The notes beneath the pieces are model-generated. The model saw only the letters and a program-made list of their open reading frames with translations. It did not search any database and was not told where the DNA came from. DNA of 64,000 nucleotides, taken from contig JABMLP010000032.1 in assembly GCA_013176395.1 (NCBI GenBank), forward strand, positions 186,001-250,000, in the 5' to 3' direction. Position numbers and translations under genes: made by a program. Shown one piece after another: positions 11,856 through 63,034 of the stretch. How positions within the stretch are numbered: the stretch's first letter is position 1; the number at the start of each line of letters is the position of its first letter. Origin of the DNA: Venturia oleaginea (Eukaryota > Ascomycota > Dothideomycetes > Venturiales > Venturiaceae).

Positions 11856-14596
11856 GGGTAGATTAAGTAAAAAACCACGGTAGATTTAGTGATTCCCAAA
11901 TTTTATAGGCCCGACGGATTTAGAACCGCTGGGACTACAATAGCAATGGCTAGCATATGAGATTACTCTCGGGTGGAGAGTTAGATCATTTGTGTTGCGC
12001 TTGCAAAAGGCAGAAGTTGGAGGATCTGAAACTGGAGCAACGACTGGGGAAAAGTGGGGAGTATGGCTGGAAAATTGTGTGCATCCCCGCATTGCTGAAC
12101 AGATACTGCTGTTAAGATGACGCGCATCAGAGCACTGTTGGTAGATAGTACGACTCAAAGATCCGTCAGCAAAAGCCGTGGCCAAAAAGCTTAAGAGTGG
12201 AGGAGTGGTGCGGTAACTTAGGGCTTCATCATCACAAAAGGCATTCTGGAGGAGGATTCGTAACCTGTGTTTCTGTGCATTCTCCAGTCGCCGGAACAGG
12301 CTGGCAGTAAATAAGATGGCAAGAACGAAGCCAATGCTTTTGGGTGTGCGAGGTGAATACATGAGCTATTTCAGGTCATCTCCTCACTTTACCCATCGAA
12401 ATCGCCATTCGTGTCCTGCGATCCAAGGCTTCTCAATGAAAATACGTGCTGCAGAAAATGTCGAATACTAGACGGAGCATATGAATAATTCAAAAATGAA
12501 ATATATACTTCACCGACTTTTGGGACTGCTGCTTTCATGGAGCAGGCTTTCCTCCTTCAAAAGGCCGTCTTATTGCGGCGTTGGCGGCAAAGAGTATCCA
12601 GATCTGCCGACTGGATTCGAAAGTCGATAGGACAGGGTCGATAGGGGATAAGGTACCAAGGGTGATAGAAATACCTTGCGACGCCAGGCCGTAGAGGAAC
12701 ACCATACGCCGATGCGGTTCTAGGAGCAAAAGAAGCCCGATGGCACCCGTACGAATCTACGTTCTCCTTGTGTCATGTTATTGCAGATGGCGATGGGAGG
12801 TTTTGGATGGATATCTACATGAGGTCGGAAACTAACTAATGCGTTGGATGGTGAGCGGCCCGAAGTTCTGCCGTTCGCTGAAATCTCGGAATCCTTCCTC
12901 CTTATTTTACACAAGCGCGAGGTATCGTCACGTTTCGGCGCGCTTCATGATTCTCAACAGGTATCTTTAGCAGGAATCCATTACTTTTACAAATACCTCT
13001 CTATATCGTTTCTAGTAATAAGCATAGAAGACGTAAATCCTAGTCTTCTTCTACTAGTCGTACGTCCATCGAGACTTCTAGCTCCAACAGATATAAGACT
13101 GGGAGTATGTATATGGGGCTGGTTCAGTATCCTCCTGTCCTCATTACTCCATCGCTGGCGATTACAACAGTAAGTGCAAATGTATGGACCAAATTGACAG
13201 ACAGACAAATTGATAGCCTCACACGCGAGTGGCAAGTGCAATAAGGGGCAGGATTTGCTCTGGTAAAAATTTGGACTGTTAGGAATAGAAAAATGGCCCA
13301 AGTCGGTTCGGCACCGAGAGCGTTGGCCCGACGTGGTAGGTTTGCTTGATCAGTCTCGACGATTTATGAGATAGGTCAAAGGATTGCTACGGTCTAGACA
13401 GGGTGCTAACACTTGGTAGGTTGGAGAGCAGTTGAAGGGAAATAGTTGCTAAGGCAATTTGACAGTTTGGCTTGGGATGTATGTAATTGGTGCTGGGAAC
13501 TGGATTGGAAATGTCAAATGAACCCTTTTTGTATCGATTGAATCTTGTATATGTGCTGTCCAACTCTGACAATTTCACATATCTACTGTCTGGTATGCGA
13601 CGCAAGAGACCTACATGTAACACTCCTTCGAATGGCGAGGTGCGTGTGCGAACCAGACACTCTATAGAATTAACCGGGGACTTCGGCACCAGCGACCTCA
13701 GAAGACATTAGCAAAGAACGCCAAATGAGTGTGGGAAATGATCCAAGTCCCATTGCAAAGACATGTCATCTCCAGCCCCCAGTCATCACAATAGTTTTTA
13801 CTCCAAAACCTAGCCCAGCCTAGCCACACGCACGATAGAACCTATGAATGGCACGCCCCGTTCGTCACTGACAGAAATCCGCGAAGCGCGTAACAGCACG
13901 ATGAATTCAAGGTGAAAAATGCCATTGACAAATGAGACTACGAGAACAAAAGGCGAATAATAAAGCAAAAGTACGAAATGCGATTCAAAAAGGTTATATT
14001 CGATACCTATACCAAAAGCGCAATATCCAAAGCACCGAATATGATCACGAATCGAACCGCGTCCAAAACATCACTCAGCGCCGCCTGCTCGATCGTAGTG
14101 AAACCATGAGCCGATCGGTCACGCAGAACTAATAATGAACCCCTTGACAAATACATAGTAGCTCAGGTCGCAATACCCTTCTAGACGCGCATAGCTTCTA
14201 ATCGTGGTCCTTCTTGGTAGCTGGAGGCAAGGGCCTGCAATATACCATTAAAAACGAGCGCGAGAACAGTGATTTATACCAGTTCCCTAGCCAAATCAGT
14301 AAAAAACGCTTTCACCTTTGAAACAAGCGCTAGAGCAGCGAATGTTATGATCAACAGGGTGATGAAGAGATGTAGCCAATCCCCATCAATACCGAGTCCT
14401 CGTAGCCGTTGGTAGCACTACCCTGTCAATTAGTTATGATGTGTGACTTGTTCGATACATTGATGGTGATCTTATGTACGAGGAAATGATGCAATTCGTT
14501 GTATGTGAATTTGCTCAGACGATTGGATGAAAGTTGGATATAGCGAAGAGTGCTCTGGTTACGAGATGATGAGGTCGTAACACATTTGCGAGTTCT
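11856..14596. other. long intergenic stretch, no gene recognised
   Basis: Short frames on both strands lack domain motifs, signal peptides or convincing splice chains. No tRNA or rRNA is seen. Confidence 0.5.
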
Positions 14597-48002: not shown

Positions 48003-51000
48003 ATGGCCGAGTTGACCACCAACTACTTTGTCTGCACACTGGGAGAAGCCGCAGGGCTTCAAGTCCAGATCAACAAGTCATACACGACTGTCAACCATCT
48101 CATTGAGCAACAAGCGCATTTCAATCCTGACCTACCTGCATTCGCCTTTCCCGTCCCGGGTCCCGGCACACGATGGGATTCTCAAATATACAGTACGTCC
48201 ACGTGATTCGTTCGATTCCAGATATAAACTGACAATGCAAAGCCTTCAAGGATGTGTACAATATATCCATCTCTTTTGCGAACAGATTCCACGAACAGCT
48301 GCTTCACTACACGTCGCCCACTGTCGCGCTTCTGTGCCCGAGTTCCAGTGACTTCGTGTTCGCTTGGTTGGGATTAATGCGAGCTGGGTTTTCCGTCTTG
48401 ATCATCGCGTGAGTTCGGTGGTCCGAAAACATAATTACCAATTCTAAACTGGTCAAATTTAGTCCGCAATGTCAACCAGCAGCCGTCGCTCATCTTTGCA
48501 GTACCTGCAGTGTTGGTTTTCTATTTTACGACGAAGCATACTCGGAGCTGGCCCAGTCCGCTTCGTCAATCGCCGGCTTCGACCTGAAGTTTCAAGCTCT
48601 CACGAAGAAAACCCAGCACTTTGATATTCGCGATCCATCGAGACGTTTCAGACCCCATTATTCCGACGACATCGCCTTCCTCTTCCACACATCTGGAACA
48701 TCAACAGGACTACCAAAACCGATACCTCAGAGTCATCACGCGGCTGTAGGAGTACTACCTACTTTGGACGGAGTAAAATCAGCGACATTCACAACCACGC
48801 CTCTTTACCACGGGGGAATTGCGGATTGTTTACGAGCATGGACGAGTTCAGCGCTGATCTGGCTTTTCCCTGGGGCTGATGTGCCTATCACTTCGAGAAA
48901 CATATTGCTTTCTATTGCCTGTGCCAAGAAATCCGAAAGAGGACAAACTACGCCGTCGGTATCGTATTTCGCCAGTGTTCCATACATCCTTCAAATGCTT
49001 GCCGACGAAGAAGACGGCTTCAACATGCTCAAGTGTATGCAAATAGTTTCAGTTGGCGGCGCCGCGCTGCCACAGAATGTCGGCGATAGGCTCGTCGATA
49101 ATGGAGTCAATCTGGTCTCACGATTTGGAAGCGCCGAGTGCGGCTTCCTGCTTTCGTCCAATCGGTTCTATGAGAAGGACAAAGAATGGCAGTATCTTCG
49201 GCTCCCTGCGAACAACAAACATCTTAGTTTCGAACCAGAAGATGATGACAGCAAATTGTCTCAACTGATTGTTCTTCCAACCTGGCCACACATCGCGAAA
49301 ACTAATCGTCTGGATGGTAGTTTTGCGACCAGTGATCTTTTTGAGCCACATCTTGGTATTCCCAACGCATGGAAGTATCATAGTCGCAATGACAGCCAAA
49401 TCACCCTCAGCACTGGCAAGAAGTTCGACCCAGCTCCTGTTGAGAACTCAATATCCTCCGCATCGCCGTTAATCAGGGATGTCTTAATCTTTGGGAACGG
49501 CCAACAAGTGCCTGGTCTTCTGGTCTTCCCCTCCAATACGTCGGCACAAAAGAAAAATGAGGACATGGAAAATACAATATGGAAAATTGTTCAAGACGTG
49601 AACTCTCAAGGTCAAGACCACACCCGCATCTCGCGGAACATGATGATCATATTGACCCAAGATGAAGATCCGCTCCCCAAAAGCAGTAAAGGGACGATCT
49701 TACGGAATATCGCCAATGAAAAGTACGCAAGGCAGATTGGAGCTGCTTACAATGGTGGATCGCAAGACAGTCTCCAAGATGTTAAATTGCTCTCCGAGAC
49801 ATCCACAGGGCAGCATGTGCTTGAGGTAGTTCGTCAAATCGTCCATGCTGTGACGAGTAGTAAGGGTGCTTTAGAGGACGACGCCGATTTCTATCAATAC
49901 GGCGTGGATTCAGGCACATGTTCGCAAATCCGTGGGAGATTGACGAAAATAACTACACCGCGCGTGAAGCTACCTTGGAGTATTGTTTATGATTGTGGAA
50001 ATATTGCTATGTAAGTCTGATGCTGTTGCAAAAATGCCCGTAGACTCATTGTTGCAGGCTATCTAAGCACCTCTTTGATACTCTCCAAGGAAAATCTCCA
50101 TCTGAAAACAAAGACGCTTCCCAAGGAATGCTTAGCCTTGCTGCCAAATACTCAAACCTCTCATCTCATACCCTTTTACGCCCAGGGCACCAAGAGCGAC
50201 TAACAATAGTTGTGAGTGGCATCCATCTCTTCTGCATACTCTTATCTGACAAACCTAGCTTCTGACTGGTGCTACTGGCTCGCTCGGTGCACACATTCTA
50301 CACTTTCTCCTCCAAGATCCCTCCATCGTGAAAATTACGTGTTTGGTTCGTGCACAAACCGACGAAGAGGCAAGAGATAGAGTCAAGGCTTCACTTGCGC
50401 GACGAAGAAAAGACGTATCAGATATTACAGAAGATCTAGCTGGCCGATTGACTTGCCACGCGTCAACTCTCGGCTCATCTGATCTCGGCCTTTCAAAAAC
50501 GAATTACGAAGCATTGGTTGGAGAAGTGACGCATGTGATTCACTCAGCATGGGCGGTGAATTTCTCCCTCCCTCTCCACTCATTCTCGGATAACATAGCC
50601 GGCCTTCACAATCTCCTCACTCTCACGATTTTGTCGGAGCAAAATGCCAGTATGGTGTTCTGCTCTTCCACAGCCTCTGTTCTCTCCTCGCTCGACCATC
50701 CCATTCATGAATCTCTTTCTGATGATCCAAAGGAGGCGGATTTACTTGGTTACTCACAGTCAAAATGGGTCGCTGAAAGAATCTGCGCCTCAGCTTCACG
50801 ACTTCCTTCTATGGCTGGTCGTATCTCCATTCTACGAATCGGACAACTCACCGGCGATACCAAGAACGGGATCTGGAATATATCCGAAGCATGGCCGTTA
50901 ATGCTCAGTACCGTTACTAAACTCAATTGTCTCCCAAAACTAGAGGGGGAAAGACTGGCTTGGTTACCCGTCGATATGGCCGCCAAAGCCGTTTGCGATA

Positions 51001-51440
51001 TTGCCATGACGTCAGAGAACATCCAAATCTCTACTCGCAGCGAAGAGAATGGAGAAGAAGGGGAAACGTGTCTGGTTTATCATCTCGTTGCGAACATCAC
51101 CCCCGATACACCCACGTGGTCTGATCTCCTCACTTGGATCCAAAGTGCCCGCAAAGAGCCTTTCGATATCGTGTCTCCACGGATTTGGCTTCAAAGACTT
51201 CGTCGCCTTGATGAGCACCCTGCTCAGGCTTTAGTTGGGCTTTGGGAGCGTGCGTATGGTGGTGAAGACGGTGATGGAGCACGGGATGGAGGGGAAATAC
51301 AGGTGAGACCGATTAGATTGTTCGAGACTGCGAGAGCGGAAAGAGCGAGTGCGTGTATGAGGAACTTGAAACCGGTTGATGAGGTTTTTGCTAGGAGGAT
51401 GTGGGCATGGTTGGATGGGGAGATGGGTGGGGAGAAGTAG
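48003..51440 (+). CDS. NRPS-like A-T-R enzyme (adenylation, thiolation, thioester reductase)
   Basis: Five exons (48003-48192, 48243-48408, 48463-50010, 50058-50211, 50259-51440; introns 47-54 nt) sum to an open frame of 1,079 residues. The adenylation domain (about 20-560) has the core A3 loop FLFHTSGTSTGLPK near 190-203 and a TTTPLYHGG segment. The carrier domain shows DADFYQYGVDSG with the phosphopantetheine Ser602. The C-terminal reductase has the NADPH loop TGATGSLGAH (about 689-698) and the Y851-x3-K855 pair in GYSQSKW. There is no condensation or thioesterase domain. Enzymes of this layout activate a carboxylic acid, load it as a thioester and release it as an aldehyde or alcohol. Its neighbours are mycosporine genes, so the substrate may be an amino acid or a mycosporine side-chain carboxylate. 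This is inferred. Confidence 0.92.
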
Positions 51441-52209
51441 GTGGTTGGATTTGGTCTGAAGCAGATTTGGGATTCGTAATGGTACGGGTGCTATGTATGT
51501 TTAATGTACATTCATTCTCCTGCGCCTGAACGTGCTTTAAAACGGCCGGCTTTAGTAAGGAGAGATATGTATACTCATCTTAGAGTGAACAAAGGGTCCT
51601 CCAAACACCACGGCGCTGCCAGTCTTTCCTCTAGCAATCTTTCATTCTGTCTCACGAAGGGCTAATCTATAGACTAGTCAACCTTAGTCCCTACTATATC
51701 TTTAAAAAAAAAATGTATAAATCTCCAGGAAGTGGATTACCAAGAGTTAGTGTACTAGTTTAGACGATACCTTGCTCGGAAAGCTGTCTTCCTTTTATTG
51801 GGTGATAACATTTAGAGCTAATTTCTTTCTTTTTGAGTGTGGTTCTTCTTAGTTATTTGAAGATATGCACTTGGAATTGGAATTGGGTAGGTCTTCTTTA
51901 TGTTATGATTTTGAAGGAGATGGATTGTGAGGGGAAGATTTGTGTTGCTTTTGGGTATCGAGATGAGTTTTTCATAAGCTTTTCGAAAAAAAAAAAAAAA
52001 AAAAAAAGGTCTTTTCGGGATATTGTGTTGTTTTGCAAAAATCTCTGATATTTTCGTCGACAGATGGTTCCAGACAAAAACCATCGTAAAGGCGTGCTTC
52101 GGTCATCGTCTCTAGAAGCTAAACAACGCCTAGCCCGCACAACAGCGCAACAACAAACAACTAGGGGAGAATCCCTTTTACGAGAGCGAAAGTACCCACT
52201 CATCGAGCC
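51441..52209. other. intergenic between convergent NRPS-like and ATP-grasp genes
   Basis: A/T-rich. It holds a 22-base poly-A tract at 51986-52007 and an A10 run near 51705-51714. No gene is seen. As the genes converge here, both 3' ends lie in this stretch. Confidence 0.6.
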
Positions 52210-53712
52210 TCAACATAGAAACATCTTCCCGGTACTGACATTACACCTGCTCCACCACTTTCCCCTCACAATCGCGACCGCAAATTTCCCGGGCCAGTAC
52301 ACACAATATAGCCACCAAAATGGCCACGGATCCCAGAGTTCGAAGGTGCCGTCTTTCCAGGTGGTGTTGTGGGTGAGGAAGTCGTGGAGATTGTTGTAGG
52401 TAGTACTGGGGCTGGAGTTGAAAGTGAGGAGGGAGAGAAGGGGAAGGATGAGACGGGTCAGGATGTCGTGGCCGAGCCAGTAGTAGCGGTTTTGGGAGGA
52501 GGGGAAGACTGTCTTCACCTCGTTCTTTTCCTCGTCGTTAGAGGTAGGATCGGAATCGAGTAAATGCAAATACGCATCTACCATCCTCCCTGTGTCACTT
52601 CCAAAAAGCACAACAGCAGTATGTGCCCTCGGGTTACATTCGATAGGGTAGATCCTCTCTTCCAACTTCTTTTCCTGCTTTCCATTTCCATCTGCCGTCT
52701 CATCGACGAGAAAATCCATGGAAAAATGCCCCGTCATTTCCTTGCCCATTTTCTCGGCATACGTCTTCGTGTACTCGAACATGACACGGAATAATGGCGA
52801 ATCGGTGGGCAGAGATTGATAATGCATGAGCATATCAGCAGAGGGGCAAGCAGTGAACAGCATTACCTTGCCTCTTATTACGATGGAGTGCGTGCAATAC
52901 TCTGGCCCCTGGATGTACTGCTGCAGAACAAAGGGGCGGGTTGGGCTTGGATTGAGACGCGTGACGTGGGAGCGAGTTTTGGAAGCGGAAGGGCGGGGGA
53001 GTAATGTCATGTCTGCGCGGGTTATGTCGTCGACGCCAACGGGTTTCATTATGTATTTCGTGTGGTCGGTATTTTTGTCCGGATCGAGGGTTCCGAGAGC
53101 ATCGTCGATGGATGTGATCAGATGGGTTTTCGGCGTATTGAGTCCTAGCTTTCGAGTGTTTTCACTGAAGGAGAACTTCTCATGTAACGTCGCTGTCATG
53201 TCAACGCCGAATTGGAGGGCTTTACATTTTGTTTCCTTCTCGACGGCTTCGGCTGATCTGGCATCTTCGAGTGCTGAAGCGACGCCAGAGCAGCTGACCC
53301 AGAGATCAATCTTCTCCTTTCTGACGATAGACAAGATGGCCGTGACATAACTCGATTCGCCTAAATCATTTTGTGATTCTTGCGGCAGCCGATAGAACTT
53401 TCTTGCGGCATTTGAGAAGCGTCCACAGACAGGAATTCCGTCTGGCTCAAAATCAGCAGTGACCACATGGTGCCCTTGTTGGTAGAATGCGCGAGCAATG
53501 GCCAAGCCTTTGCTCATTCCCACCCCTGTCACCAAGATCCTTCGTGGTTGAGTAGCACATTCCCTCCGACTGCGGCCATCTCGGTGACGTGACGAGAGAG
53601 AGGCGAGGATTGTCGCAATGGTGCAATAAGGCGTAGAGACAATGGCGAGGACGAGTAATGATAGATTCTGCAGCAGGTGCTGCCATGAAGGCGAGGCAGA
53701 CGAAAGAGGCAT
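52210..53712 (-). CDS. ATP-grasp ligase, MysC-like (mycosporine amino-acid ligase)
   Basis: A single exon of 500 residues with ATG at 53712. A hydrophobic N-terminal stretch (about 15-42) could be a membrane anchor or signal-like segment. The pre-ATP-grasp domain starts ILVTGVGMSKGLAIARAF (about 59-76). The ATP-grasp core follows, with the Lys strand YIMKPVGVDD, the hinge FVLQQYIQGPEYC, GHFSMDFLVDE, and the metal-binding end IECNPRAHTAVVLF. The C-terminal 100 residues include a Trp-rich segment. MysC in cyanobacteria couples 4-deoxygadusol with glycine using ATP. In fungi the linked amino acid may be glutamine, glutamate, serine or another, and is not predictable by eye. The place between the cyclase/methyltransferase pair and the NRPS-like gene supports this role. 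Confidence 0.85.
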   Translation of the reverse strand: MPLSSASPSWQHLLQNLSLLVLAIVSTPYCTIATILASLSSRHRDGRSRRECATQPRRILVTGVGMSKGLAIARAFYQQGHHVVTADFEPDGIPVCGRFSNAARKFYRLPQESQNDLGESSYVTAILSIVRKEKIDLWVSCSGVASALEDARSAEAVEKETKCKALQFGVDMTATLHEKFSFSENTRKLGLNTPKTHLITSIDDALGTLDPDKNTDHTKYIMKPVGVDDITRADMTLLPRPSASKTRSHVTRLNPSPTRPFVLQQYIQGPEYCTHSIVIRGKVMLFTACPSADMLMHYQSLPTDSPLFRVMFEYTKTYAEKMGKEMTGHFSMDFLVDETADGNGKQEKKLEERIYPIECNPRAHTAVVLFGSDTGRMVDAYLHLLDSDPTSNDEEKNEVKTVFPSSQNRYYWLGHDILTRLILPLLSLLTFNSSPSTTYNNLHDFLTHNTTWKDGTFELWDPWPFWWLYCVYWPGKFAVAIVRGKWWSRCNVSTGKMFLC

Positions 53713-53729
53713 TTTGGAATGACTTTGGA

Positions 53730-53828
53730 CCTCGCTTCGTTGGCTCTGGAGTCGTCTTCGAGCCTCGCTTCGTTGGCTCTGGTGTCGTCTTTGGGCCTCG
53801 CTTCGTTGGCTCTGGTGTCGTCTTCTCG
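53730..53828. repeat. 33-bp tandem repeat, three copies, 18 bp upstream of the ATP-grasp start
   Basis: The unit begins CCTCGCTTCGTTGGCTCTGG and repeats at 53730, 53763 and 53796. Copies differ at one to three sites. It lies in the presumed 5' leader or core promoter of the ligase gene. The period keeps upstream frames open, so an N-terminal repeat-coding extension is conceivable but has no support. Confidence 0.9.
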
Positions 53829-54744
53829 AACAATCACAAGCCAGTCCTTTGGCGGTACAAAAGATATTGCGATGCTGCCATGCAATTTGTCGAAGAACGT
53901 CATGAGTCTGTAACCCGTTTGAGCTAGACTGTATCGGGAAAAGGGCATGCGCACCCGCTAAAGACGGGCTGGATCGTTGTGGAGACTGCCCCGAGCCAAT
54001 AATAGCGCTGGATTAGGAATTACTTAAGGAGAGACCTACGAAGGCGGGATATGGAATCTAACCATAGTTAATTGGGGGTCATTTGCGATACCACTTCCGT
54101 GCGTAGTACTCGTATTGAAACGGGACAATTGGAAGGCTAAACGTCAGATTACTTTAGGCTATTGTCGTAGAGAGGGGGAGACTTTTGTGCGTGGAAAAGC
54201 TGAGAACTCGACATGCGGTTGGATGGTACCCGTCGCTTATTGAGCGACCCCCGTACTCATTGAGCGACCCTCGTACTCATTAAGCGACGGGTAAGATTTT
54301 GAAGTGGGTGAGCCGTGGAAGAGCATGGCGTGACTTCCCATGTGGCAAGGGCGGCTACTCAGAAATGTGCTGATGACCCAAGACACTGCAGGGCTGAGAG
54401 CTTCCTGGCCACCATCAAGAGGGCAACCTGGTCTCAGATCATGGATCATGGCATGGTGAGAGTCGCCTCCGAATTCGGTCTCTGTCTCTGCCCGTATTCC
54501 AAATGCGTTCTTCAATGCCGTCATGGTTGCTAGAGCGGAAAGACAAGCTAGGCGACCGTAAAGTCGTTGCCTCTTGAGATATCTATTGTCGTTCCTTGAG
54601 ACATCTAATCTGACATGTATACATTAATGACTAAGTTGCTATCATGCTCTGATCGAAGGCACAACCTTTGAGAACCGTATGTCATCGCCCTTCTCAGCTC
54701 GCAAGAAGATGTTTTTCCACACCACCTATCTTCGTTGCTTGCAG
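53829..54744. other. upstream region of ATP-grasp gene and 3' flank of methyltransferase gene
   Basis: No gene is supported. It contains an inverted repeat (54228-54239 / 54281-54292, 12-bp perfect arms) enclosing copies of a 20-bp direct repeat. Confidence 0.5.
54228..54292. repeat. 12-bp inverted repeat enclosing 20-bp direct repeats
   Basis: ACCCGTCGCTTA at the left end is the reverse complement of TAAGCGACGGGT at the right end. Between them CGTACTCATTGAGCGACCC-type units repeat with period 20. Confidence 0.85.
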
Positions 54745-55710
54745 TCACTTGCCCGACGTCTCTTCGCCCATGCAATACGTGATTTCCACGCCATCCTGAA
54801 AACGTCAGTGGCAGGACTTCGAGTGGAGATAGAGGGAGATACTCACTGGGACTCCTGTTGGCTCAAAGCTGTGCACAATATCGCTCTTATAGATGATATC
54901 TGGATTGCCTGGCGTCTCGTTCTTTGGAATCTCCTCGCTGCCATAAAGAGCAGCATGCGTGATGGAGAATTTCTTGAACTCCTCGCGCGTATTCACTTCA
55001 GGATCTCCTGCTTTCAAGGCCATTCGTTTTTCTTGCGGTGTGCTGCGAACGTATTTGAGGTAGCGTGGATTTCCGGGCTTGATGACATTGTCGGCGGCAA
55101 GTACAGTCCCCTTCTTGATCAGGCCAAGTGACTCGCACAGCTTGAGATCCGTGGTGTATAAAGGCTTGACGTGGTCCAAGAACATCATATCGACCTGATT
55201 TAGCTTTCCATCGTCATGCAGCTTCTGGAGGCTCTCGGTGCTTCCTCCGACGACCACTTCAACAATGTCATCCAAACCAGCAAGTTTGACCAAATTCTTG
55301 ATAATTTTTCCAAACTTTGGGCTCTTCTCCAAGCAATAAAACTTTTGGCCTCCCCTCTCTTTCAGTGCATTGGAAAACAGAATGGTCGAGTAGCCGCAGT
55401 ACCCTCCAAGTTCCACCATGACCTTGGGTTTCACGTCGTGAATGAGATTGGTCACAATTCTGCCTTTGTCTTCACCCACGTTCATGAGGTACTTCTGTTT
55501 CCGACCATATTCGTCGATTGCGTCCAAAATCTTCGAGGGCTGGTTTTGTATGCCGGTTTTGGCCTGCACAAAGGCAACCAAAGCTTCCTCTCGGCCATCA
55601 TCGAACTGAGTGATTCCTGTCAGCGGAGGTCTCAGGTTGCCGGACGGTACGTTACTCACATATGTCTCTTCCTGCTCGGCGTACGCCTTTGTCTCGTCAA
55701 AGGAAGGCAT
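54745..55710 (-). CDS. SAM-dependent O-methyltransferase, COMT-like (4-deoxygadusol-forming, MysB role)
   Basis: Two exons (55710-54847 and 54795-54745; a 51-nt intron GTGAGT...TTCAG) give 304 residues, ending ...ITYCMGEETSGK. The fold is that of catechol-type O-methyltransferases: a helical cap with KYLMNVGEDKGRIV, the SAM-binding strand VMVELGGYCGYSTILFS, the acidic strand end FYCLEKSP, and the metal-site segment VDMMFLDHVKPLY plus AADNVIKPG. An N-terminal extension of about 60 residues precedes the cap. In mycosporine pathways an O-methyltransferase turns demethyl-4-deoxygadusol into 4-deoxygadusol. Cyanobacterial MysB is a different, smaller methyltransferase type, so equivalence is by context. 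The gene is divergent from the cyclase gene, which strongly suggests co-regulation. Confidence 0.87.
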
Positions 55711-56543
55711 TTTGATGTGTGTGTACGCTGGACGCGTCTGTCAACACATGCCAAGTGGGAGAGGAAGCAGGCCGCGGGCAGGATCCGAGTGACGTCCCCG
55801 CACTTTGGTCGCCAGGAGCAGATTCCCAGTATCGCATGCTTGCTGTTGATTGGATTTGGATGAGGAGTCGACGTGTAATGGACGTTTCGATAGACACGTT
55901 GAGCCCGTCACGTTACCTCGCGATCCCAGTCGGAGCGTTGCCCTCGAGTCATTGGTATAGCATCACTATCCCACCTGTCACCCACCATCTCCACACCTGC
56001 ACCACCTCCGCTCCCCAGGTCAACACCATCGAATCATCATCACCACTCCCTTCCAGCGCTACTACCGATGGTCCAGATCAACTCTTGCGCCATCCTGCCG
56101 CGGTTCAGGAGCAGGTACGTACAGCATTACGTACAGATGTCAAAGTGAGGCACAGGAGTCTTGATCGCTCCCCAACGTCGTCCCCCACCATGGTGTTTCA
56201 ACCCGCATCTCTCCGCCATGTATGGATTCCATCCTTGTTGCTATGCAGTTCGGTTCCGTGCTGGCTAGATGCTGCATACATCTGGACACCAGAACCCTCA
56301 TGATCTCACTTGTACCTTGTATATGCCCATCAATAGCTCATGCTGTGTAACTATGTCAACGTATCAACACTTGTCTCAATCGAGGTAGCTGGAGAAGGGC
56401 CGGAAGTATGGTCATTGTAACGGCTTTCATATACCGTCTGTTGCCTGCCTTCTCTTCTCTCACAATTCTCCCTCACTGATCACTCTTCACTCCATCTTTC
56501 TTCAACTCGCGCGTAATTCCATTTTCAACAGGAATTTTTCGCC
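55711..56543. promoter_or_regulatory. shared divergent promoter, O-methyltransferase / sugar-phosphate cyclase
   Basis: The 833 bp between the two start codons is the only upstream region for both genes. Pyrimidine-rich leader sequence (TC-rich, about 56440-56530) lies before the cyclase ATG. No binding motif can be assigned with confidence. An open frame at 55719-56303 appears to be chance. Confidence 0.6.
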
Positions 56544-58043
56544 ATGTCAGACCTCAAAGCTACCGTCAAGGAGACGAAGACCCCCTCTGGTCACGCTGGA
56601 TTCCACGTCGAAGGCTACGAGAAGATTGAATATGATTTCACCTTCATCGATGGCGTTTTCAACATCGAGAATGCCAATTTGGCCGACCTCTACAAGAAGT
56701 GGGAAAGGTGCCTTGCAGTGACAGATATCAACATCTACAATGTCTACGGCGAGCAGATGGAGAAATACTTCAAACACCACGGCATCAAGTTGGTCATCCA
56801 CAAGACCAAGATTGGCGAGAAGGCAAAGACCATTCCAACTTTGCTTTCCATCGTCGAGGCCATGGTGAGTCTTAACGTGCTTCTTTCCGCCTATCATCCT
56901 AACATCCGACAGACCGAATTCGGCATTATTCGTAAGGAACCAGTCTTGGTCATTGGAGGTGGTCTCGTCACCGATGTCGCTGGCTTTGCTTGTGCCGCCT
57001 ACCGCAGGAACACAAACTTCATTCGGATCCCAACCACCGTCATTGGTCTCATCGATGCGTCAGTGTCAATCAAGGTCGCCGTCAACTATGGCAACTACAA
57101 GAATCGTCTAGGTGCTTGTAGGTACTCTGGCATATATCCTTCCCTTCTATGACCACTCTAACATGGCTCAGACCACGCTCCCATCCATACCCTTCTCGAC
57201 TTTACCTTCCTGCGTACATTGCCCATCTCCCAAGTACGAAATGGCTTTGCTGAGCTGATGAAAATCTCCATCTGCTCACACCTATCCACATTCGAACTGC
57301 TCGACAAGTATTGCGAGCAGCTTATTGAGATGAAATTTGGTCGTGCAGATGGCTCGTCCAAGGAATTGATCCAGGCCGCCGACAAGATCAACGTTGAGGG
57401 CATCCACGAGATGTTGAGGCTGGAAACGCCCAACCTTCACGAGATTGGCCTTGACCGTGTCATTGCCTACGGTCACACTTGGTCACCCTTGCACGAGCTA
57501 GTCCCAGAGACGCCTTTCCGTCATGGACACGCCATTTCCATCGACATGGCTTACTCTGCGACGCTAGCCAACAGCCGCAAACTCATCACTGACGAGGAGC
57601 ACCACCGTATCCTGAAGCTCTTCTCTCGTGCTGGTCTGACCATGGATCACGAGTCCTTCACTGGAGAAATTCTGGAGAAAGCAACTGCTGCCATTCTGAA
57701 GACCCGTGATGGTATTCTCCGCGCCGCCGTGCCATCACCAATTGGCTCATGTGTGTTCCTCAATGACGTCTCCAAGCAAGAGATGGACGCTGCTTTGCAC
57801 AGACACAAGCAGATCATGAAGGAATATCCTCGCCAAGGCGCCGGCCTCGACGCGTTTGTCGACGCCAGCGATACTGGCGAGGACGAGCACGATCACGTTA
57901 TCGCCAAGAACCCGTTGAACGGCAAAGGCGCCAAGGAAACCAATGGCAGCAATGGTGTCAATGGTATCAAGAAGGATTCCATCACCGAGATAGAGTGCGC
58001 CTCTAAGCTGGCCCAGCCACCAACCACAAAGGTGATGGCATAG
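56544..58043 (+). CDS. sugar-phosphate cyclase, demethyl-4-deoxygadusol synthase type (MysA-like)
   Basis: Three exons (56544-56864, 56913-57117, 57172-58043; introns of 48 and 54 nt) give 465 residues. It belongs to the dehydroquinate-synthase fold. Visible blocks are GGGLVTDVAGFACAAYRR (from about 122, NAD-binding Gly-rich), the RIPTTVIGLIDASVSIKVAV strand-helix, NYGNYKNRLGAY-HAP across intron 2, GFAELMKIS, and the metal ligand pair His293/His295 in RHGHAISID. It differs from true dehydroquinate synthases and lies beside methyltransferase and ATP-grasp genes, so DDG synthase is the best call. 2-epi-5-epi-valiolone synthase is the close alternative. The C-terminal 60 residues are a polar Asn/Gly/Lys tail not seen in bacterial enzymes. 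Intron 1 (48 nt) has no in-frame stop, so retention would add 16 residues. Confidence 0.9.
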
Positions 58044-58698: not shown

Positions 58699-59927
58699 CG
58701 TTGTTCCGATCACCCAACCCGTCAGATCACCCAACCGGTCCAAATTTCTTGGCACGACCATCTAATATTACGACTCTTTAATTTCATCGCTATTAACAAT
58801 AGATTCTAAGTCCGTCGTGCTGCCATCTGATTCAGAAGATATCTCGATATCTCTTTTACAAGTTCGCGCATTATGCCCAGTTGCGCCGCAGTTCCCACAG
58901 CGCCATTAAGTTGGTCGGGCTGTTTTCGATCCCTGAGGCGCTACAGACGCCTCTGCAGCTACCTGCGCTGCTGCAGTCCCATACTCTATAGTACCACCTT
59001 GCTGGATCCACTTCCTTTTGCGCCATTTTCGCTTCGTCGCCTTTGTATGCGCGTCAAAGTGCTTCAACCACTCAAGACCCAGCGCGTTGTTTGTCCAGCC
59101 GTTCTCAGAGACTGAAAGCTTCCAATTGCGCGGTATATCTGCCTCCTCATACCACGTAGAGATGTGAACTCGTCCTTTGTAGATAATGAATGGCGGGGTC
59201 GCATACCCAGCTGCGCAAATGCTCTGAATAACCGTAACCCATTCGCGATCGCCCGGCTGAATGAGTTCAGGCCTTGTACGTCTCTCAGAGGCTGTAACGA
59301 CCTTCATTGACCCAATAATACCCATCTGGAAGCCAATCTCGTCAAAGTTGTGCGTATCCTCGTCGTGGATGCCGTACTTTGCCTTGGTGTCTGCAACGAG
59401 CTTGAACCACGTGCCAATAATCTCTGGATCTTCCTGTAGTATCCTCTGCCTATCCTCGGCTCGATTGAAGGCTGTTTTGAGCTCACCTGAGCGCTTTACG
59501 AACCTCTCAGCCCACTTTTTGCCTACTGGCTCTCCACCGCGTATACCCAACAATTTATCCGCCATATCTGCCACCTCACACAGCCGGGGCGCAAATCTTC
59601 GCGAATCGAGGTCGAGGGTATATCGGACAAGCGTTTGCTCTTCGTTAAGGGTAAGTTTCCGACCGTTTGGTGGTCTTTCGAGGATAAATGGGACTCCTCT
59701 GACGCGATCGGAGAGGGTTTGTTGTTTAACGTTGAAGGCGCTCGCAGCAGCCCGTTGGCTTCGGAGTTGGCCGGTATTCAAAGCTTGGATTGCAAGCTGA
59801 ATTCTCCCTTCTTGTTGGAGTAGTAACTCATTACGTTGTTGAGACATAGTAGAATAAGAAGAGTAGTCGGGGTCTTGGCAAATTTTGACCGGTTGGGTGA
59901 TCTGACGGGTTGGGTGATCGAATACGT
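58699..59927 (-). mobile_element. internally deleted pogo/Fot1-like transposon, second copy (1.2 kb)
   Basis: The right end is identical to that of the 10.8-kb copy and abuts TA at 59928-59929. The left end keeps the doubled GATCACCCAACC motif, but the outermost 10 bases have diverged. It retains more of the transposase than the other copy. Confidence 0.85.
58768..59847 (-). pseudogene. pogo-like DDE_1 transposase, core deletion and nonsense mutation
   Basis: From the ATG at 59847 a clean 313-codon frame covers the Psq helix-turn-helix, the CENP-B-type second DNA-binding domain (GKKWAERFVKRSGELK) and the start of the DDE domain, with the first catalytic Asp in NFDEIGFQMG. At HFDAHTKA the frame jumps to the basic patch TKRKWRKRKW, so about 150 residues including the other two catalytic Asp are missing. 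The frame then meets TAA, where the other copy has CAA. The adjacent CGG is TGG, so two neighbouring C-to-T changes have occurred. The same frame continues to a CCHC knuckle and stops at 58768. Not functional. Confidence 0.88.
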
Positions 59928-60466
59928 TATCTATATAATTTTCCTCATCAGAAAGGACATGTTATTACGAGCCCCTCTTAAAACCTCAGTATTAACTCTG
60001 TAATCCGATATAACCTTTACTAGGAGAAAAGCGCCAAGACCCTTTAGTATCCATTCCGAAGCCTAAATAACGCCTTTCCGCCTAACGGGAAGGCGAATAT
60101 CTTAATGCGGGAAGTCTCGCGGCGGGAATAACGAAAGTCTGTAGATTGCTTTACCTCTAATCGCCCTAGCCGGGCAATGTTATGTGGGCAGTTGAGTTGG
60201 CCTATCTATACCTCGACTTGTTTAAAATGGTAACACACACAAATGAAGATAAATTCAATGAGTGACTGCATGGCCCTCAAACTGAGTGGAAATGAGGGCT
60301 CTATATATACAAGAGAATGTACTAAAGTAAGGATAGAGGACTTGAAGATCCTATAAAGAATCTGCCCAAAATACGAGGCTAAACGGGGGCTTAAGGCCTC
60401 CAGCGATATAGCCCTATTGCGTGATTGCAACACGACTCCTCCTTTTCCTGCTGCTACCCCTCCTGG
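59928..60466. other. intergenic, no gene recognised
   Basis: No supported frame or repeat. Confidence 0.5.
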
Positions 60467-61602: not shown

Positions 61603-63034
61603 TTACGTATTTGGGCATCGATTAATCTTATGACCTTGAATACCGCAGCCACTACATGTTGGTAATGTTCGCTGTCGTACGACGACTTCCTGATCTTGAA
61701 CACTATCTCTAGAGCTATTTTCGCATCCCTCGATCAAGAACTGACCCTGTTGAGCTTGTAAAACGCCTCCATATTCAACATATCGTCTGCGATACTGTTG
61801 CTTCTGTTTTCGTCGTTGGTTCTCTGTACGAAGCTTCCTATTCTCTTCTGCAAGTATTACTGCTGAATTCATTGCGACTTGATATCCTTTGATGAGTTGA
61901 CCAATTGCTTGACTACTTGGGCTCTGAGATTGGCGATGAAGAAGATTTCGGACGAGCTGAGCCTGCTGCTCAAGCTGAGCTATCTTACGAGGAGTTTCTG
62001 ACGTCCACTGTGGCGCTACTCCATGGGGTGTACCTGGTGGTGAGGGCGTTTTGGTAACTGTAAGCGACGAAAGAACGCGCTGCGGGTCGTACGGAATAAT
62101 TCTTGTCGCTTGAAAACCGCTCTTAATATTCTGCTCAGAGAAGATAGTAGGTCGGATGCTTGCATAGATTGATAGAAAGTCCTCTTTATCAATATGGTGG
62201 GTTCCCTGACGAACAAGCTCTTGAACTGCTTGACCGTAGGAGCGTTTCAAAGGCGAAAAACAGCTTACATCAAGCGGCTGAAGAAGATGAGATGTGTGTG
62301 GCGGCATACAGAGTGTGATAATGTTATTCGTACGTCAATATTCGTCAAAGTCTGGTGTTGCGTGACTGCTGTGGCCATCGAGGATAAGGAGGAGGTGGGT
62401 ACCCTTCGTACGAGCTTCGGTATGAGTATTGAAGTGCTTGATCCACTCAAATCCAAGCTCATCAGTTGTCCAGCCATTATTGCTGATAGCAATAACCCAA
62501 TCGGCCGGTAACTGACGGTACCAGTTTGATTGATGTACTTTTCCAGGAAGGATAATAAACGGCGGAATTGCCCAGCCTGACGCGTTGATTTCCTCAATCG
62601 CTGTTATCCATTCACGATTCCCTGGCTGTACAACAGTTGCTCGTCCGACTGTATCTGCGCTTGTAACCACCTTTGGGGTCGCGATAACCCCCATCATAAA
62701 GCCAATCGTCAAAATTATATATATCCTCCGTAAGGATGCCGTACGACAGACGCGTCTCTTCAACACGCTGAAACCACGCGTTGATTGTCGCTGGATCTTC
62801 GCATTTTGCACGCTGTGAATGGAATTTACGATTTCACTTCGTACAAAGCTCCGGCTGAGCGTTGATGAAGCGGGATACCCAGTTCTTCCCGACTAATGAC
62901 GGTGCAGCAAAGATTGAGGGCTGAATACGTACAGATTGATTCGCTCCTTTTTCTCGGCTTGAGTTGTAGTTGTAGTTGCGCAAGCGATGCGACTTTGAGA
63001 GTCTGTATAAGCGGTACGACTTTGAGGATTGCAC
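61603..63034 (-). pseudogene. third pogo-type DDE_1 transposase, different subfamily, decayed
   Basis: The order runs from a CENP-B-like piece at about 63000-62840 (GKNWVSRFINAQPEL), through an in-frame TGA at about 62820, to the first catalytic Asp region IYNFDD at about 62720. A one-base deletion there breaks NFDE-IGFMMG. Then comes an intact 62700-62340 frame with the second Asp in LLILDGHSSH, a TGA near 62338, and the final frame 62307-61603 starting MPPHTSHLLQPLDVSCF with the third Asp. That part ends in a CCHC knuckle (CSGCGIQGHKINRC). The N-terminal helix-turn-helix is missing, replaced by the tandem array to the right. All three catalytic Asp are present but not in one frame. Confidence 0.85.

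Follow-up and report, generated by a model that had tools for sequence, protein, structure and literature searches.

A candidate mycosporine gene cluster in Venturia oleaginea with a putative carboxylate reductase as its fourth gene

Which enzyme could supply the side-chain alcohol of a fungal mycosporine, a natural ultraviolet sunscreen, and is its gene clustered with those of the core pathway? This question is raised by a four-gene locus of Venturia oleaginea (Venturiaceae) at positions 48003-58043 of a 64,000-nucleotide stretch of DNA (the window), taken from contig C26 (bases 186001-250000) of a 46-Mb assembly. An earlier note on this DNA had described a cyclase, an O-methyltransferase (OMT), a MysC-like ligase and a nonribosomal peptide synthetase (NRPS)-like gene lying together here, all intact after splicing. 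The gene models agree: the four genes have open frames after splicing, with seven GT-AG introns in total. The three-gene mycosporine core also stood up to homology, fold and the cyclase tree. The NRPS-like gene, in contrast, is now read as an adenylation-thiolation-reductase (A-T-R). With a probability of roughly 0.6, judged from sequences, structure models and analogy, the locus is a mycosporine cluster of the Venturiaceae in which the A-T-R would reduce a carboxyl group to the side-chain alcohol. Its three-gene core is established biology that is met here in another host, and the reductase is the part of interest.

The core enzymes and the fourth gene

The cyclase MysA is assigned, on its sequence, as a 2-desmethyl-4-deoxygadusol (DDG) synthase (DDGS). 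It scores 487 bits against 5tpr, its best solved relative, and 235 bits against 4p53, versus about 117 bits against the best plain dehydroquinate synthase (DHQS). The structure listing names these two entries '3-dehydroquinate synthase' and 'Cyclase', respectively; we take 5tpr to be the DDG synthase of A. variabilis and 4p53 to be ValA, a 2-epi-5-epi-valiolone synthase (EEVS). All trees in this study are quick trees without bootstrap, and the support values given are those of such trees. In a tree of 23 rows, the window MysA falls into one clade with fungal MysA, the MysA of bacterial loci and 5tpr (support 96; fungi 100). Both 4p53 and the DHQS domain of the genome's own AROM protein are found outside this clade, where the branches are long. 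One sequence region has been described to separate DDGS from DHQS (PMC10057719; this and the other papers are cited here from excerpts). A motif pattern relaxed from that paper fits 17 of the 18 MysA rows and none of the 5 EEVS or DHQS rows. Bit scores, tree and motif thus all place the cyclase with the DDG synthases and not with DHQS or EEVS. Other Venturia MysA proteins are 90-91% identical to that of the window (V. inaequalis: 91%). Most aligned fungal MysA sequences end in a variable, often NG-rich C-terminal tail (alignment columns 415-548), located past the aligned end of the bacterial fragment.

For the ligase, homology to the neighbors of bacterial MysA genes and the predicted fold support an assignment to the MysC type; no Pfam match was obtained for the window protein. 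The bacterial comparison covers 80 MysA loci of 3-21 kb each, kept out of 315 found. A MysC homolog, 26-34% identical, is present in 68 of these 80 loci, and in 66 of the 80 it lies downstream of MysA and is read in the same direction, with a median gap of 1120 bases. The AlphaFold2 (AF2) model of the window MysC (pLDDT 87.9) matches ATP-grasp enzymes in Foldseek, first YwfE and PurK. The Venturia relatives are 72-79% identical. In the model, residues 9-48 form a long, hydrophobic-looking N-terminal helix and the C-terminal part is rich in Trp, which suggests that the protein may be membrane-associated. The bases immediately preceding the MysC start codon (window 53729-53822) hold short head-to-tail repeats that resemble GCCTCGCTTCGTTGGCTCTG, as seen by eye with no repeat search made.

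The OMT (Pfam: Methyltransf_3) has catechol O-methyltransferase (COMT) as its structural relatives. OMT matches were found in 17 of the 80 bacterial loci at E 1e-5. When E up to 10 is allowed, the stretch separating MysA from MysC contains one in 21 of 66 bacterial loci. Orthology to MysB is thus weakly supported, and the enzyme is described here as COMT-type with a putative MysB role.

The domain order and modeled fold of the fourth enzyme identify it as a predicted A-T-R protein. Pfam reports AMP-binding, AMP-binding_C_3 and a C-terminal reductase domain, NAD_binding_4; the carrier domain is not called in the window protein, yet its GVDS motif is present. Three Venturia relatives are 64-73% identical over the full length. 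A model of one of them, P0002 from V. inaequalis (pLDDT 81, pTM 0.52), contains both the adenylation (A) and the reductase (R) fold. It matches aryl-acid ligases, NRPS modules, didomains of carboxylic acid reductases (CARs) and the R domains of the N. crassa CAR and MxaA, the latter of which releases alcohols. The reductase Tyr and Lys (GY..SK; YxxxK) are identical in all 40 relatives that were aligned and are kept in the window protein. The A-T-R order and the R-domain fold are shared with the CARs (N. crassa CAR R domain 8aep, bacterial CARs) and the MxaA R domain, although the R domain is only about 25% identical to theirs. Within the genome, the A-T-R scores 1286 bits at this locus, followed by 82 bits on contig C8 and 39 bits on C11, without a further close copy.

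What the A domain activates may be hinted at by its A4 motif, which reads PLYHGG in the family. Amino-acid-activating A domains carry FDxS at this site, and the replacement therefore gives a weak hint at a substrate that lacks a free alpha-amino group, e.g. an assembled mycosporine-amino acid. The fold of the domain resembles aryl- and acyl-acid ligases besides NRPS modules. A profile search on A-domain specificity gave 7 matches; in the 3 whose alignments were displayed, coverage is confined to the R domain or to the C-terminal portion of a CAR A domain, which yields no substrate code.

Two other identities were considered for the fourth enzyme and rejected. A MysE-type NRPS role was rejected on account of the terminal NAD_binding_4 domain, as MysE has the architecture A-T-thioesterase. 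Identity with NPS10 (A-T-R-R, glycine betaine reductase type) was rejected because the window protein stops after one R domain. In NPS10 a further domain follows the reductase (PMC5118889), and the A-T-R-R order is given in PMC8403587; that both describe one family is our own reading of the excerpts.

Co-location and phylogeny across fungi

Beyond Venturia, the A-T-R gene recurs in the vicinity of mys genes. Pairing was done by eye from 120 listed matches for each protein (of 948 for the A-T-R, 1338 for MysC and 3324 for MysA), and a species was paired when its name occurred among the A-T-R matches and also among those of MysA or MysC. Genera listed only under different species, as several strains or under varying names were left out (Hortaea, Alternaria, Coniosporium, Candelina, Pyrenophora, Rhynchosporium, Paraphaeosphaeria and Diplocarpon mali/coronariae, among others). 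Among the 35 species paired from the listed matches, one contig holds the A-T-R together with MysA or MysC in 22, where 1.1 would be expected; the expected counts assume a 35-Mb genome, and the species are related and hence not independent. The same-contig cases, scored by an identical longest contig, comprise all 3 Venturia, 10 of the 13 Leotiomycetes, 3 of the 8 Lecanoromycetes and allies, and 6 of the 11 other Dothideomycetes. When Venturia and the Leotiomycetes are set aside, 9 of 19 remain versus 0.43 expected. The tightest arrangements are seen in Claussenomyces, with neighboring locus tags (002762/002763), in Cadophora gregata and Oculimacula, with the A-T-R three locus tags from the mys genes, and in Lachnellula occidentalis, where both are located on a single 17-kb contig.

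In the A-T-R tree, built from the window protein plus 48 of the 120 listed matches (49 rows), Venturia, itself a dothideomycete genus, groups with the Leotiomycetes (100), while the other Dothideomycetes form one clade (100), and forcing Venturia into the Dothideomycetes is rejected (p 1e-6). The MysA tree, which has 57 rows (the window protein plus 56 of the 120 listed) and uses the first 430 residues, likewise has Venturia on a branch with the Leotiomycetes (95). In this case, three eurotiomycete rows (Exophiala, Aspergillus) are placed amid the Dothideomycetes. An apparent rejection of Venturia with the Dothideomycetes (p 0.0017) was dropped on account of these mixed-in rows: p rises to 0.48 when they are held in the group. 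Without them p is 0.59, with the dothideomycete grouping scoring slightly better, and the Dothideomycetes alone as a clade are not rejected (p 0.20). The MysA tree neither supports nor excludes a transfer. The MysA of Aspergillus multicolor adjoins that of Lophiostoma, on a long branch. Among the 120 MysC matches listed of 1338, no dothideomycete other than Venturia is named.

Because the A-T-R tree supports a transfer of the reductase or the cluster between fungal classes and the MysA tree does not settle it, such a transfer is a lead from one gene and not a result. A clade of Leotiomycetes that excludes Venturia is not rejected in either gene tree (p 0.30 and 0.86), and therefore no direction of transfer is read. 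The A-T-R tree could also have arisen from a hidden gene duplication rather than a transfer. However, the mixture of classes found in the MysA tree is absent from the A-T-R test, in which the Dothideomycetes stay together.

Gene layout, second copy and flanks

The coordinates of the four genes and of the shared upstream region are collected in Table 1. The earlier note had also stated that no other gene lies in between, and the list of open reading frames (ORFs), beyond which the gaps were not searched, shows no further convincing one. The single intron of the OMT gene is located close to its 3' end. The region between the divergent OMT and DDGS genes is possibly a two-way promoter. For the A-T-R, MysC and MysA, the three of the four proteins that were searched, the best named relatives come from Venturia and match over nearly the full length. 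The intact frames, together with the MysA identity to V. inaequalis, are consistent with selection maintaining the pathway, as had been proposed.

Table 1. Features of the locus in window coordinates
Feature	Position	Strand	Details
A-T-R carboxylate reductase (NRPS-like, putative), 1079 aa	48003..51440	+	exons 48003-48192, 48243-48408, 48463-50010, 50058-50211, 50259-51440
MysC (ATPG), ATP-grasp ligase (predicted), 500 aa	52210..53712	-	intronless; homology and AF2 fold
MysB-type O-methyltransferase (putative), COMT-like, 304 aa	54745..55710	-	exons 55710-54847, 54795-54745; Pfam Methyltransf_3
MysA, 2-desmethyl-4-deoxygadusol synthase (predicted), 465 aa	56544..58043	+	exons 56544-56864, 56913-57117, 57172-58043
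Upstream region common to divergent OMT and DDGS, 833 bases	55711..56543		from gene models

A second copy of the cluster lies on contig C31 (156,290 bases), which is about 99.9% identical to C26 from window base 13253 on (80 kb of C31 compared). The match begins at the first base of C31 and spans positions 1 to about 67000, with an inverted, shuffled stretch further right. In the 12 kb around the cluster, C31 differs from C26 by 3 substitutions and 2 one-base gaps; two of the substitutions alter residues of MysC, and the third abolishes the stop codon of the A-T-R. Gaps account for 16 of the 28 difference columns in the compared stretch, a pattern as in a redundant contig, and the C31 copy may be such a redundant contig (an assembly duplicate) or a recent segmental duplication. 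Close copies of MysA, MysC, OMT and A-T-R are found on C26 and C31 only, with distant relatives elsewhere. The terminal 6-8 kb of C31 and C26 contain one stray telomere hexamer but no telomere repeats.

The description of the neighboring regions as full of broken genes is covered in part. On the right flank (window 58906-59961 and 61603-62892, minus strand), ORFs resemble pieces of pogo-type DDE transposases, as judged by eye with no family search. There is little sign of repeat-induced point mutation (RIP): outside the cluster, 7 of the 107 one-kb windows have a composite RIP index above 0, and inside it 1 of 19.

Proposed pathway, alternatives and meaning

The core steps would correspond to those proven in cyanobacteria. 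MysA would convert sedoheptulose 7-phosphate to desmethyl-4-deoxygadusol, which the OMT would methylate to 4-deoxygadusol. MysC would then join an amino acid, or an amino alcohol, to it at the expense of ATP. The A-T-R, finally, is predicted to adenylate a carboxylic acid, hold it as a thioester and reduce it with NAD(P)H, converting the carboxyl group to an alcohol. Its likeliest substrate would be the mycosporine-amino acid, or the amino acid prior to attachment, and the end product would be a glutaminol- or serinol-type amino-alcohol mycosporine with absorption near 310 nm. Serinol is frequent in fungal mycosporines. Glutaminol is likewise often found in them (PMC10057719). The three core steps are proposed because the enzymes are homologous to those proven in Phaffia rhodozyma (PMC10057719), and the role of the A-T-R is supported by its domains, the invariant Tyr and Lys, the R-domain match to MxaA, the lack of another close copy in the genome and the recurrent co-location with mys genes.

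In Phaffia, the three genes of the MYC cluster (DDGS-OMT-ATPG) were proven by deletion and yeast expression (PMC10057719). As in Venturia, DDGS is divergent from OMT and ATPG, the ATPG counts 500 aa and the DDGS motif region is present (PMC10057719). In contrast, the DDGS/OMT gap is 1568 bp there versus 833 bases here, the Phaffia genes have 14, 7 and 6 exons where few introns are found here, and no A-T-R is mentioned for the Phaffia cluster in the excerpts (PMC10057719). The Phaffia ATPG adds glutaminol, for which the same excerpts name no enzyme as the source (PMC10057719). The bacterial mysA-mysB-mysC clusters are alike in their MysA, which is 49-59% identical in the 80 loci kept. They differ in that MysC follows MysA on one strand in 66 of them and that none of the 80 contains an A-T-R relative at E 1e-5. 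A search relaxed to E up to 10 gave 4 weak matches, the best of them at 0.099. In cyanobacteria, the mys core is instead supplemented by an NRPS or MysD (PMC10057719). The 'myc' cluster families of the Hypoxylaceae also combine NRPS-like genes with mycosporine-type clusters; the excerpts assign no product and, unlike here, give no reductase role (PMC8403587). A reductase assigned to a fungal mycosporine cluster was not found in the excerpted literature searched.

Several observations weigh against a reductase working in this pathway. S. cerevisiae carrying only the Phaffia DDGS, OMT and ATPG yields a peak of mycosporine glutaminol, as judged by co-migration in high-performance liquid chromatography (PMC10057719). 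Because three genes sufficed, an A-T-R was dispensable in that yeast, unless one of its own enzymes took over the step. Linkage is loose in those listed Lecanoromycetes and Dothideomycetes whose locus tags are readable, from 23 (Xylographa bjoerkii) and 54 (Lecanora helva) to about 112 tags. For 13 of the 35 species the pair is not on one contig, some of these involving small contigs or different assemblies. Botrytis, Sclerotinia, Hymenoscyphus and Glarea are not among the 120 A-T-R matches listed of 948, while MysA or MysC matches exist for these genera. The A-T-R of the powdery mildew Podosphaera aphanis (P0056), moreover, lacks the aligned carrier region with the GVDS thiolation serine, and may be inactive or mis-predicted. 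The locus could then be a plain three-gene cluster, in which MysC alone gives the mycosporine-amino acid or -alcohol and the A-T-R is an unrelated neighbor (e.g. for aryl or fatty acid reduction). With three genes sufficient in Phaffia and yeast (PMC10057719), and with a ligase-like A domain whose A4 motif is not FDxS, this is a serious, if clearly less probable, alternative. It does not account for the repeated co-location in Venturia, Leotiomycetes, Lecanoromycetes and other Dothideomycetes, nor for the adjacent tags in Claussenomyces and the near ones in Cadophora gregata and Oculimacula.

It is improbable that the fourth enzyme adds a second amino acid to give an imino-mycosporine. Like the NRPS of Anabaena (PMC10057719), it is NRPS-like and clustered with MysABC; however, it ends in a reductase instead of the MysE thioesterase, and no relative of it was found at E 1e-5 in the 80 bacterial mys loci. 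Nearly as improbable is a silent relic without product. The C31 copy, with its changed MysC residues and lost stop codon, and the transposase-like ORFs nearby (by eye) would fit a relic, whereas the frames of the window copy are all intact, three of the proteins are conserved in Venturia and C31 may be an assembly duplicate. A mycosporine cluster with its own carboxylate reductase is thus preferred.

A wider and doubtful extension is that the A-T-R family would be the missing amino-alcohol enzyme across filamentous ascomycetes, long located near mys genes and tightly clustered in the Leotiomycetes, and that the pathway, or at least the reductase, passed between the Leotiomycetes and the Venturia lineage. 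The phylogeny of the A-T-R is in this respect a second lead beside the reductase itself. If it is true that the cluster crossed fungal classes, protection against ultraviolet light would be acquirable as a unit. For fungi of sunlit leaves and rock, the clustered and conserved A-T-R provides one named candidate gene for the alcohol step.

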